Source of the DNA: Campylobacter volucris
Lineage (GTDB): Bacteria > Campylobacterota > Campylobacteria > Campylobacterales > Campylobacteraceae
Direction: 5' to 3'
DNA length: 64,000 nt
Assembly (NCBI RefSeq): GCF_008011665.1
Contig: NZ_VOWJ01000033.1
Location: 1 to 64,000 of the forward strand
Program-made: the position numbers and the translations under genes
Shown here: in pieces, positions 21,025 to 25,296 of the stretch
Layout: each line of letters starts with the position of its first letter
Numbering within the stretch: the first letter of the stretch is position 1
The notes under the pieces: generated by a model
Databases searched by the model: none
What the model was told of the DNA's origin: nothing
What the model saw: only the letters and a program-made list of their open reading frames with translations

Positions 21025-21516
21025 ATGCAAAAATTATTTTTAACTTTTTTTTACTCAGGTAGTATAAACAAAGCTCCTGGGACTTTTGGAACTATTGCAG
21101 CACTTATCCCTGCTTTTTTTATACTAAGATATCTTGGCATAGAAACTTTGATTTTACTTGCGATTTTACTTTTTTTAATTTCAATTAAAATCATCGATCA
21201 ATATGAAAAACAAACAGGTAAGCACGATGATAAACATATAGTTATAGATGAAGTTGTAGGAGTATTTTTGGCCTTAGCAATTTGCGGGCAAAGTATTTTT
21301 ACATTTTTGCTTTCTTTTGTTTTATTTAGATTTTTTGATATCACAAAACCTTCTATCATTGGTAAAATTGACAAAAAAATCAAAGGCGGTTTAGGCGTAA
21401 TGCTAGATGATGTTTTAGCAGGGATTTTCGCAGGATTATTTAGTGCAGTCATTTATGGAATTTTACTTAAATTTGATCTTTTATGGTTTGATATAAGCAT
21501 TATGGAGATACTATAG
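21025..21516 (+). CDS. pgpA: Phosphatidylglycerophosphatase A
   Basis: Dephosphorylates phosphatidylglycerophosphate to phosphatidylglycerol at the inner membrane. The 163 residues contain the PgpA motifs SGSINKAPGTFGTIAAL near the start, HDDKHIVIDEVVGVF (metal-binding Asp/Glu) and GLGVMLDDVLAGI, and about four membrane segments. It follows the sulfurylase-like gene by two bases and probably ends the ispDF operon. The ~140 bases after it hold no gene or terminator I can recognise. Confidence 0.93.
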   Translation: MQKLFLTFFYSGSINKAPGTFGTIAALIPAFFILRYLGIETLILLAILLFLISIKIIDQYEKQTGKHDDKHIVIDEVVGVFLALAICGQSIFTFLLSFVLFRFFDITKPSIIGKIDKKIKGGLGVMLDDVLAGIFAGLFSAVIYGILLKFDLLWFDISIMEIL

Positions 21517-21656: not shown

Positions 21657-21881
21657 TTATTTAAACGACACCAAAAAACCAAATATTAGTCCAAGTATTA
21701 CACCCCAAACAAGTAATTTAAAGATAATCTCTCCGATTTCATCTTTATACTCATAAATTAAACCAATTGCACCCATAACAACAATAATACCTATAATTAC
21801 AGCCCAAATTTCCCAAAATTTAACCAGTAATATGATAAAAATCATAATTAATATTATACCAATCAAACCAATAAGTTGCAT
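21657..21881 (-). CDS. Small hydrophobic membrane protein
   Basis: 74 residues, nearly all hydrophobic: three membrane segments (about 2-20, 27-44, 54-72) with a short charged loop YEYKDEIGE between the last two. No family recognised. Its ATG lies ~75 bases downstream (in its own direction) of the terminator of the lipoprotein genes, so it probably has its own promoter. Could be a membrane-stress or holin-like protein; nothing in the sequence decides. Confidence 0.6.
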   Translation of the reverse strand: MQLIGLIGIILIMIFIILLVKFWEIWAVIIGIIVVMGAIGLIYEYKDEIGEIIFKLLVWGVILGLIFGFLVSFK

Positions 21882-21953
21882 TTTAACCCTTAGAATTTCA
21901 AAATACTACAATATAATGTCTTTATATGATTTTTCAATTTTTTTATTATTAAA

Positions 21954-21980
21954 ACTAATCTTAACGAAATTAAGATTAGT
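21954..21980 (-). terminator. Terminator after the three-lipoprotein operon
   Basis: On the minus strand an 11-bp perfect stem (arms 21970-21980 and 21954-21964, 5-base loop) is followed by TTTTAATAAT. It lies eight bases after the stop of the last lipoprotein gene. Confidence 0.75.
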
Positions 21981-21987
21981 CTATTTT

Positions 21988-22410
21988 CTATATATTCTCT
22001 TTTTCAAAGAATATTGCCTTATCTAGCACTTGAAAAAACGAATGATAAATTTCTGGATCTTCTACCAGAGTTGGAATTTGCATATTAGATCCATATTGGG
22101 CATTAGCTCTAATAGTTGATTTTTTATCTCCTTTTTCTCTTATAACCAATGTTATACGCATTGTTGCACCTTTTGATAATTTCGTTGCAGTAACTGTTCC
22201 TGTTTGCAAATCCGCTTTATCAATTACAAAACCAAGATCTTGTAATGTAAAAACACCAGCTTTTGCAACAATTTTTTTAGGATAATCATATTCTTTTGTT
22301 TGATATGTTCTAACTTGAAGCTGCTGAGTATTTTCAATAACCATTTGTCTAGAATTCGTACCACACCCAACAAAATACAAAGTCATTATAAATAATAATA
22401 TTTTTTTCAT
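21988..22410 (-). CDS. Lipoprotein, third gene of lipoprotein operon
   Basis: 140 residues with a signal peptide and lipobox LYFVGCG (Cys16). The mature part has FTLQDLGFVIDKADLQTGTV, which closely matches a segment of the upstream lipoprotein (ATLQDLGFNIDEINRDFGIV), so the two are paralogues. No family with known function recognised. It overlaps the preceding gene by four bases (ATGA) and is followed by a terminator. Probable outer-membrane location. Confidence 0.75.
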   Translation of the reverse strand: MKKILLFIMTLYFVGCGTNSRQMVIENTQQLQVRTYQTKEYDYPKKIVAKAGVFTLQDLGFVIDKADLQTGTVTATKLSKGATMRITLVIREKGDKKSTIRANAQYGSNMQIPTLVEDPEIYHSFFQVLDKAIFFEKENI

Positions 22411-22940
22411 AGTTCGTTTGCCTCCAAAAACACTGATTTTGATAATTTTTCATAAAATTGTTGGTAAATTTCTGCTTCTCTTATACTTCCAACTTCATTA
22501 ACAGAACCCTCTTGATTTCTTACAATTCTTTGCATTGTAAACCTTACAAAAGTCTTTTTGATTTTATTATTTGTAGAGATAACCACACTTGCCTTAATTT
22601 CTTGCGTATGATCTGAATGTTTTGAAGCAGTCATAGCTGCACCCGGAGATAAAAGCACCAAGACAATAATCCCAGCTTGAGTAGAAACTTCTCTAGCATC
22701 TCTTGTTTTAGATGCACTTACTATTCCAAAATCTCTATTAATTTCATCTATATTGAATCCAAGATCTTGCAATGTTGCAATACTAGATGATAAAATTTTA
22801 TTTGTATCAACAGTATTAAAACTTTTAGTCTGCAATTGCCTTTCTTGTGCTGTAGATGTTTCAATCTTCATCATCTCTTTAACACTAGTTGTTGCACAAC
22901 CACTAAAAATAAGTAAAAAAATAGGTATTATAAACTTCAT
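22407..22940 (-). CDS. Lipoprotein, second gene of lipoprotein operon
   Basis: Starting at ATG 22940 it has a clean signal peptide and lipobox LIFSGCATT. The frame is open to 23003, but the extra 21 residues would spoil the signal peptide. The mature protein has LQDLGF shared with the third gene, then a hydrophobic stretch (AGIIVLVLLSPGAAMTA) that could be buried or membrane-inserted, and a C-terminal beta-strand-rich part (RFTMQRIVRNQEG). It overlaps the third gene by four bases and begins 10 bases after the first gene ends, so all three are co-expressed. Confidence 0.75.
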   Translation of the reverse strand: MKFIIPIFLLIFSGCATTSVKEMMKIETSTAQERQLQTKSFNTVDTNKILSSSIATLQDLGFNIDEINRDFGIVSASKTRDAREVSTQAGIIVLVLLSPGAAMTASKHSDHTQEIKASVVISTNNKIKKTFVRFTMQRIVRNQEGSVNEVGSIREAEIYQQFYEKLSKSVFLEANEL

Positions 22941-22950
22941 ATTTAATACC

Positions 22951-23340
22951 TTAAAAACTTGAAGTGTGATATGCCACATCTCTAACTTTTTGGTTATTAT
23001 CAAATTTTATAATAACAGTTAAAGTTCGTTGTGTACCAACATTACTACCACTATTTCCAGCAACTCCGGCAAAAATAATACTTATACCACCAGATGAATT
23101 TTGATAAGCTCTTTGGGTGCTAATCTTATCATATACCCAAACTTCTCTTCTTTGCTCATCAGTTGATATAATATTTGGAGATCCCATTATTTCTATGATT
23201 TCAGATGAGCTCATACCAATTTTTATATCTTTTTGAGCTTTTGCTACTGTTATTTTTTCATCCACTTGCGGATTATATAAAGTTTTATTACATGCAATGA
23301 ATGATAAAGCAATGATAAAAAGCAATGAAACTTTACGCAT
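22951..23340 (-). CDS. BamE/OmlA-like lipoprotein, first gene of lipoprotein operon
   Basis: 129 residues with lipobox LSFIACNK (Cys17). The mature part has KIGMSSSEIIEIMGSPNIIS and REVWVYDK, the helix-turn and strand motif of the SmpA/OmlA/BamE fold found in outer-membrane assembly lipoproteins and related inhibitors. A glycine-rich insert (SSGGISIIFAGVAGNSG) is unusual for BamE. The ATG lies just after the first of two palindromic sites shared with a divergent helix-turn-helix gene, implying specific control. Confidence 0.75.
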   Translation of the reverse strand: MRKVSLLFIIALSFIACNKTLYNPQVDEKITVAKAQKDIKIGMSSSEIIEIMGSPNIISTDEQRREVWVYDKISTQRAYQNSSGGISIIFAGVAGNSGSNVGTQRTLTVIIKFDNNQKVRDVAYHTSSF

Positions 23341-23356
23341 TAAATCTCCTTTAATT

Positions 23357-23370
23357 TATCCTATAGGATA
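23357..23370. promoter_or_regulatory. Palindromic operator-like site 1
   Basis: TATCCTATAGGATA is a perfect 14-bp palindrome between the lipoprotein operon and the divergent helix-turn-helix gene. The second copy of its core TCCTATAGGA is 38 bases away, centre to centre. By position it would control the lipoprotein operon promoter. Confidence 0.75.
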
Positions 23371-23395
23371 TATTTAAAAAAATTATATCTTTTTA

Positions 23396-23407
23396 ATCCT
23401 ATAGGAT
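23396..23407. promoter_or_regulatory. Palindromic operator-like site 2
   Basis: ATCCTATAGGAT, a perfect 12-bp palindrome with the same core as site 1, ends five bases before the ATG of the helix-turn-helix gene. Binding here would block transcription or initiation of the regulator, consistent with autoregulation. Confidence 0.75.
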
Positions 23408-23412
23408 AAAAA

Positions 23413-23662
23413 ATGGAAGAGAACTTTAGCAATTCTAGCGAAGAAGAAATTCTAAATTTTTATAAAAAAGTATCATTAAATATAAGAAATTTCAGAGAAA
23501 AAAAAGGAATTTCTCAGCTGGAACTAGCTCTAGATATAGGTATAAAATCTGTTGCATTTTATTCAAATTGTGAGTGCAATCGATATGGTAAGCATTTTAA
23601 TTTAGAACACTTATAAAATTTCTAAAAGTTTAGAAGTTCCATTAAAAGATTTATTAGATTAA
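23413..23662 (+). pseudogene. XRE-family HTH regulator with frameshift
   Basis: From ATG 23413 the frame encodes an N-terminal tail, then a Cro/C1-type domain (IRNFREKKGISQLELALDIGIKS). It stops at 23616 after FNLEHL. Two bases appear to be missing there: in the next frame YKISKSLEVPLKDLLD, the exact end expected of an XRE domain, runs to a stop at 23660-23662. The site reads CACTTATAAAATT, where a TATATA run would restore the frame. The helix-turn-helix core is encoded before the break, so a truncated product might still bind DNA. It likely regulates the divergent lipoprotein operon through the two palindromes. Confidence 0.7.
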
Positions 23663-23687: not shown

Positions 23688-24701
23688 TTATTTTATAAAT
23701 CCACTTGCAAGCACTAAATCTTTATCGTAAAATACAGCCATTTGACCACTAGCAACGCCATAAATTGCTTCTTTTAATTCTACTTTGATCTTATCATCTT
23801 CAATGGTAAGAATACAAGGAGTCATTTTACTTCTATAGCGAATTTTTACACCACATTCAATTTGTTTTTGTTCGACAAATAAATTAATATTTTTTAACTC
23901 AAAACTGCTTACTTTAAGTTCTTCTTTTTTGCCTACTATGATTTCATTTTTACTAGGATCAATTTTTAGTACAAAATGTGGCTCATGTGCACCCTTTACT
24001 TCAAAACCTCGTCTTTTTCCTATGGTATAGTGCATATATCCTTCGTGTTTTCCTACTTCTTTACCACTACTATCTCTAACAATTCCAGGAATTTTAGTAT
24101 CCATAAATTGATCTAAAACTTGCACATAGGTATCTTCCACAAAACAAATTTCAGAACTTTCTTTTTGAGTAGCAAAAGATTTTAGTACTTCTATAGTAGA
24201 AGCAAATTTTTTAACATCTTCTTTCTTCATATCTCCAAGTGGAAATATCAAATATTTTAAAGCATCTTTATCAGCACTTGCTAAAAAATAACTTTGATCT
24301 TTACTTTCATCAAAAGCACATCTAATTAAATTATTTTCTATCCTTGCATAATGACCTGTAGCTAATTTTTCACAACCTAAACTTTTAGCAAATTCTAACA
24401 ATTTTCCAAGTTTTATAAAACGATTACACAAAGCACAAGGATTTGGAGTTTTTCCTTCTTTATAAGTATCCACAAAAGGCATATAAACTTGCTTTTTAAA
24501 ATCTTCTTGCAAGTCTAAAATATGATATTTAATACCCAAAAAATTAGCAACTTTTTCAACTTTTTTGATATTTTCTTCATGATAATTTGGCTTACCATGA
24601 AGTTTCATATAACAACCTTGCACCTCATGACCAGCTTGTTTTAATTTATAAGCAGTAACAGTACTATCTACACCCCCGCTCATCGCAACAAGAATTTTCA
24701 T
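23688..24701 (-). CDS. mnmA: tRNA 2-thiouridylase MnmA
   Basis: Adds sulfur to U34 of Lys, Glu and Gln tRNAs. PP-loop [15 protein letters not shown] at residues 5-19; the catalytic cysteines are in [13 protein letters not shown] and [12 protein letters not shown] (CxxC-type pair at about 97 and 197). 337 residues is normal. The frame has two consecutive ATGs; the second (24701) gives the usual [10 protein letters not shown] and better spacing to AAGGA. Its 5' end overlaps the LOG-like gene by ~38 bases. It corresponds to Cj0053c. Confidence 0.94.
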
Positions 24702-25296
24702 CATTGTCCTTTATTGTTTTTATAACTTCACTCAAATCATCACTTATGCTATATTTTAACTCATCGTTTTTAGATATAACATTAAGCTCCAACAAAGAAG
24801 TTTTAATAAATTTATCAAGAGGTTGCCAAAATTTTTGCCCGACTAAAATAATAGGAACATTTTTCTTAAATTCAAGCTGTTTAAGGGTAAGAATTTCAAA
24901 AAATTCATCTAATGTTCCAAAGCCGCCTGGGAAAATCACAAAAGCAAAACTCTTTTGAATAAGAGCCATTTTGCGAATGGCTAAGCTCTTAAAAGTTATA
25001 TTATACTCTAAAAACTCATTTGCTTTTTGCTCAAATGGTAAATGTATATTAAATCCTATAGATTTTAAATGAGAATTGTTACTTTGCATTGCACCATAAT
25101 TAGCAGCTTGCATAATCCCTGCTCCACCACCACTAACAATACAATATCCTAAATTTGCTAATTCTTGAGCTAATTTAGAAGCAAGAATGCTATATTCATT
25201 ATCTTGAGCTAACCTTGCTGAACCAAAAAAAGTTACAGCTTTTGATAAATTTTTTAACTCATCAAAATACTTTATATCTTCGATAATTTCTTTCAT
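24664..25296 (-). CDS. LOG-family (TIGR00730) Rossmann-fold protein
   Basis: 210 residues with the lysine-decarboxylase-like/LOG fold: [29 protein letters not shown] and the signature [19 protein letters not shown], in the PGGxGTxxE form. Proteins with PGGxGTxxE are usually nucleotide 5'-monophosphate phosphoribohydrolases (PpnN/LOG), which release free bases, or nucleotide-binding regulators; they do not decarboxylate lysine. The C-terminus has two cysteines (NSCCDERG). It overlaps both fliY (4 bases) and mnmA, so it belongs to the end of the flagellar operon. Confidence 0.85.

Follow-up and report, generated by a model that had tools for sequence, protein, structure and literature searches.

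Three small lipoprotein genes of Campylobacter volucris, designated here A, B and C, face a regulator of the XRE family across two palindromic operators in the window (the whole 64,000-nucleotide stretch that was analysed). Comparison of genomes makes it well supported that the regulator and its twin palindromes constitute a shared switch with interchangeable, mostly exported cargo. The triple ABC, in turn, may tentatively be regarded as one mobile cargo of such a switch-plus-cargo cassette, namely a BamE/BamC-like lipoprotein complex that is expressed conditionally and alters the outer membrane, a reading that falls somewhat short of an even chance.

The lipoprotein operon and its products

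The genome belongs to the family Campylobacteraceae, and its gene content suggests a Campylobacter similar to the lari group. The island lies between pgpA (21025-21516, forward strand) and mnmA (23688-24704, reverse strand). The operon is read from the reverse strand and begins with gene A (22951..23340; BamE-domain lipoprotein of 129 aa), followed by gene B (22407..22940; 177 aa) and gene C (21988..22410; 140 aa), which encode lipoproteins with an LQDLGF motif and a predicted helix-grip fold. The coordinates, a gap of 10 bp between A and B, an overlap of 4 bp between B and C and three lipoboxes (FIAC, FSGC and FVGC, respectively) confirm the three coupled lipoprotein genes described in the earlier note. 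The terminator that the same note placed behind them is also present as a hairpin 3' of gene C (21952..21982, reverse strand; fold -12.6 kcal/mol, z -3.84) and was absent from a G-C based terminator scan.

The note had further regarded the island as self-contained and had counted a membrane protein as its member. This view is not sustained, since the gene of this 74-aa protein (21657..21881, reverse strand) is situated past the terminator, has no counterpart at either of the two nearest ABC loci and occurs as a cargo gene in genomes G107 and G108, in copies that are 63% identical. The membrane protein belongs to the exchangeable gene pool of the locus, outside the conserved triple. Farther downstream between pgpA and mnmA, genes of small exported and membrane proteins are reshuffled among species as a common pool (L017 8432-9064, L018 8823-9474 and L080 5866-6322). 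The search for a tRNA or Rfam RNA as an integration site found none.

The product of gene A exceeds the Pfam BamE (PF04355) cut-off (24.5 versus 23.2 bits), as the earlier description of a BamE-like lipoprotein implied, and is the sole BamE-domain match in the 1.54-Mb genome. The same cut-off is reached by the copies from Azospirillum (27.3), Acinetobacter (24.3) and the phage contig L096 (24.4). The protein remains below the NCBIfam BamE and OsmE equivalog cut-offs: NCBIfam BamE PRK11548 is matched at all by three of seven A members (best E 0.015), and OsmE is matched weakly by all seven members scanned (best E 3e-5). A belongs to the wide BamE/OsmE superfamily. Every A copy read, of alpha, gamma, epsilon or phage-contig origin, ends in Y-[HR]-x-S-x-F-COOH (22951-22971 in the window).

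B and C are paralogous, as had been noted earlier (hhalign E 7e-33), and matched no Pfam or NCBIfam family. Their AlphaFold models, built for the individual proteins from shallow alignments of 7 sequences, have pLDDT values of 71 and 79 and a predicted order of strand-helix-four strands-helix; B additionally contains a hydrophobic stretch inserted at residues ~84-109. In a Foldseek search against the PDB the top match of both was E. coli BamC (E 1.6e-5 for C and 1.4e-4 for B), at TM-scores of about 0.37-0.57, that is, a moderate fold match. Because B and C are paralogues, these two matches are not independent tests, and helix-grip folds occur with many functions. In the models both proteins have a single domain (140-177 aa) with a short N-terminus and lack the two helix-grip domains of BamC and its long unstructured N-terminal BamD-binding segment. 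Sequence homology to BamC (PF06804) was not found by Pfam or as a family match in the genome, and the hhalign alignment of B and C with BamC was restricted to the leader, so that no sequence link was detected; profile searches of the PDB with each of the three proteins gave nothing meaningful. Thus B and C are predicted to have a BamC-like fold and do not belong to the BamC family. The B proteins of three phage contigs (L052 4186-4947, L054 4356-5084, L050 4228-5001) contain an extra insertion of ~60-70 residues, which is absent from chromosomal and plasmid copies.

A twin-operator switch with exchangeable cargo

The divergent gap between A and the XRE gene is 72 bp long and contains, as the earlier note stated, two palindromes, which are exact copies of ATCCTATAGGAT; this 12-mer is otherwise absent from the 1.54-Mb genome. 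The cargo-side operator TATCCTATAGGATA (23357..23370, unstranded) covers the copy at 23358-23369 just downstream of a putative -10 box of the lipoprotein promoter (GATATAAT; 23382..23389, reverse strand), proposed from its position and conservation, and the regulator-side operator (23396..23407, unstranded) is located just upstream of the XRE start codon. A conserved block between the operators, in the region of the putative -10 box, is kept in the relatives.

The divergent XRE gene itself is present (23413..23616, forward strand), but not as the intact frame of 83 aa that had been reported. A 2-bp deletion near 23613 shifts the frame to a stop at 23616, leaving 67 aa; the frame remnant runs to 23662, and this position, given earlier as the end of the gene, is where the shifted frame terminates. 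Two in-frame stops in this gene were flagged by the genome search, and its relatives are intact at 82-89 aa and exceed the HTH_3 cut-off. The operator pair of the window is also 18 bp shorter than in all relatives (38 bp between centres versus 55-56). Sequencing error alone is unlikely to account for two independent lesions, one in the regulator and one in the control region.

The pattern TCCYATRGGATTAA-N(22-50)-TATCCTATRG was searched in 397 Campylobacteria genomes with the reversed pattern as control. It was found in 19 genomes of 7 genera and 3 families, and the control gave 0; according to this result and the uniqueness of the 12-mer in the genome, chance was rejected as the origin of the twin palindromes. 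An XRE gene with the recognition region GIKS[VI]AFYSNCE is divergent from the twin operator at a distance of 5-46 bp in all 19 cases, and the operator centres are spaced at 55-56 bp in all of them except the window. The palindromes are therefore conserved, which was the test set for them beforehand, and the operator pair is not "private" as initially supposed.

The genes behind this switch differ. ABC is the cargo in the window, G092 and G105; a 90-aa protein with small exported or membrane proteins takes this position in G079, G087, G107, G108 and G121, and further small proteins, which carry a Sec-type leader or a lipobox, are found in G002, G015, G169, G213, G214, G257, G306 and G387. No clear cargo frame was read beside the twin operator in G163, G263 and G380. 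The alternative cargo genes were not found on plasmids or phages, and the idea that the G087 cargo is a Cas9-related fragment was discarded, as the one match of approximately 990 aa that was examined (G089) reads as Mfd and Cas9 fails to align. In G104 the pgpA-mnmA locus (L078 5115-9349) holds a Cas9 of the CjCas9 type (995 aa) and Cas1 behind the same XRE gene, which faces this operon; the twin operators are lost there.

A sister XRE with another recognition region (HNSVSLVSFAE) has its own twin palindrome, AACTTATTATAATAAGTT; the gene opposite this regulator belongs to ABC in G223 and encodes a different lipoprotein in G293. Regulator and operator sequences thus co-vary, and this is the best computational evidence that both interact. 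In genus g13 the sister cassette stands opposite an unrelated lipoprotein of 185-186 aa in G240 and G293 and opposite a lipoprotein-like frame in decay in G208; the loci are L081 4586-5146, L066 and L082. The divergent layout, the two palindromes and the position of one operator across the beginning of the cargo promoter are shared with XRE repressors of the Cro/CI type, but here the regulator/operator cassette is conserved in three families and the controlled exported genes are replaced.

Genomes G088 and G169 contain ABC without an adjacent XRE gene. In both, a poly-G tract abuts the putative ABC -10 box from upstream (G9 in G088, L019 7911-7919; G13 in G169, L047 8458-8470), and since G9 runs are scarce in these genomes, both placements at ABC promoters are unlikely to be due to chance. 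The tracts look like a signature of slip-strand phase variation. The suggestion of a regulated envelope system, made from the window only, gains support from the XRE gene with its twin operator, from these poly-G promoters and from the lipoboxes.

Recurrence and exchange of the triple

The genome searches for ABC spanned Campylobacterota. The order A-B-C is fixed in G092, G105 and G088, of the same genus as the window, and recurs in three genomes of genus g9 (one of them Campylobacteraceae bacterium Kf353_bin114); a different family contributes three more genomes (G153, G169, G223). These loci occupy different places in the genomes and have unrelated neighbours. ABC is also carried by an Azospirillum brasilense plasmid, where its genes are annotated as "hypothetical protein", and by an 8-kb Acinetobacter baumannii plasmid. 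All three genes are present in five IMG/VR contigs, a sixth having C at its very edge. That these contigs are of phage type is shown by profile matches to tail fibre in L052, to portal and head protein in L053, to terminase in L054 and, at a weak level, to portal in L096. No ABC was found among 50,697 records of cultured phages. Co-occurrence of the lipoproteins elsewhere had been proposed as a refutation test, and they were found in fixed A-B-C order far outside the genus. The triple is present in about 7 of 397 Campylobacteria genomes, and this rare and patchy occurrence indicates an accessory system and not a core part of BAM, the machinery that assembles outer-membrane proteins.

Between the window and G092 the dS values of the cargo genes (A 0.10, B 0.08, C 0.07) contrast with those of mnmA (0.74), pgpA (0.63) and the XRE gene (0.33), which indicates that the cargo moved between species and the flanks stayed. 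By this measure ABC appears to have been exchanged recently with a sister species. The dN/dS ratios are about 0.08-0.29, with the exception of 0.52 for C in the closest pair, and thus point to purifying selection on the three genes in the majority of comparisons. A beta-barrel outer membrane protein (OMP) gene adjoins ABC in the phage-type contig L096 (49-789), where it scores above the cut-off of Pfam OMP_b-brl. Another probable gene of this type, which matches a Helicobacter OMP family below cut-off and contains a G8 run, is situated by ABC in a g9 genome (L021 2236-2847).

Proposed function and competing explanations

According to the proposed mechanism, the small XRE regulator would bind the two palindromes, which lie on either side of the divergent promoters at a spacing of 56 bp. 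As the cargo-side palindrome would span roughly +5 to +18 relative to the cargo promoter, repression of both the cargo and the regulator itself is most likely; in the window, where the regulator is frameshifted and the spacing shortened, the lipoproteins are probably constitutive. A, B and C would be exported, lipidated according to prediction, and probably joined in one outer-membrane complex, in which A may take the place of BamE and B and C that of the helix-grip domains of BamC. Such a complex would most likely work at or beside BAM and alter which OMPs are assembled, and hence the cell surface, a change that may be selected both on and off, as would fit XRE repression, poly-G promoters and plasmid and phage-type carriage. 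The action at BAM is the weakest step of this scheme; it is suggested by the fold and domain resemblance and by the beta-barrel neighbour in L096 and probably L021. The BamE domain together with the BamC-like fold also makes outer-membrane assembly the best reading of "secretion support", which the earlier note had listed among possible roles. The far-reaching version, in which ABC is a mobile, conditionally expressed BAM-mimic and one of several interchangeable exported cargos of a switch common to Campylobacterota, and redirects the OMP assembly of the host, including lineages thought to be without BamC and BamE, is rather doubtful.

The main rival, quite possible if hardly probable, is that ABC serves as an exclusion module of prophages, plasmids and islands, masking or altering a surface receptor against further phages or plasmids with no action on BAM. 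Lipoprotein factors of superinfection or entry exclusion include Cor and Llp of phages and TrbK and Eex of plasmids, which act alone. The ABC proteins resemble them as small, predicted exported lipoproteins on phages and plasmids, but no sequence relation was found, and here three genes stand together. The presence of the complete triple beside portal, terminase or tail-fibre genes in the five phage-type contigs and on the small Acinetobacter plasmid is in agreement with exclusion, as are the promoters of phase-variable type, frequent for phage-related surface traits, and the CRISPR-Cas9 operon behind the same XRE gene in the same island of G104. However, PADLOC matched none of A, B, C and the membrane protein, the single match of a C copy to the Cor exclusion protein spans only the leader, and the lack of ABC in the cultured-phage records also argues against it. 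Exclusion and action at BAM could both be true together.

An OsmE-like stress function, in which ABC would be a self-standing complex for envelope maintenance, unrelated to BAM or exclusion and acquired by mobile elements in the manner of other fitness genes, is unlikely: the weak OsmE matches of all seven A members, the superfamily of A and the purifying selection agree with it, but systems of this kind do not usually show a patchy, mobile distribution, recent exchange or promoters that switch on and off. OsmE and OmlA (SmpA) are lipoproteins of the superfamily of A; OsmE is a single gene, whereas A is followed by B and C at every locus where all three are readable. Derivation of the triple from a spanin-like phage cassette for lysis or outer-membrane disruption, domesticated by bacteria, is highly improbable. 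A 3-TM holin-like gene near the phage copy in L054 and weak spanin matches at leader level point in this direction, but a transmembrane partner is lacking, the helix-grip domains are predicted to be folded, chromosomal copies are under purifying selection, and the holin neighbourhood occurs in only one of the five contigs.

With regard to the preferred reading of a BamE/BamC-like complex, BamE (PF04355), which bridges BamA and BamD in the BAM complex, and BamC (PF06804) are taken here as BAM accessory lipoproteins of gamma- and beta-proteobacteria. The likeness of ABC to them consists in the BamE cut-off reached by A, the predicted folds of B and C and the predicted lipoprotein nature of the products. 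In contrast to them, ABC is mobile and encoded as a unit of three genes, two of whose products are BamC-like and have a single domain, and B and C differ from BamC in having neither sequence homology to it nor its long N-terminal BamD-binding segment. In the study of Anwari et al. (2012) BamC was not found in alpha-, delta- and epsilon-proteobacteria and the epsilon BAM complex gave no evidence for BamB, BamC or BamE, and the authors proposed that these roles might be taken by proteins as yet unknown (PMC3359395). ABC occurs in lineages reported there as BamC-free. A BamC-/BamE-like phage lipoprotein system, the ABC triple and the regulator were undescribed in the open-licence literature searched.

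In summary, B and C, which have no family in Pfam or NCBIfam, accompany a BamE-domain protein in epsilon-, alpha- and gamma-lineages as well as in phage-type contigs. Given its rarity, ABC is a concrete candidate for an accessory complement of the epsilon BAM complex and not for a replacement of its core. The conservation of one regulator/operator pair in three families with swapped exported targets raises the question of which signal unites these cargos. If ABC acts on BAM, phages and plasmids would be equipped to remodel the surface of their hosts.
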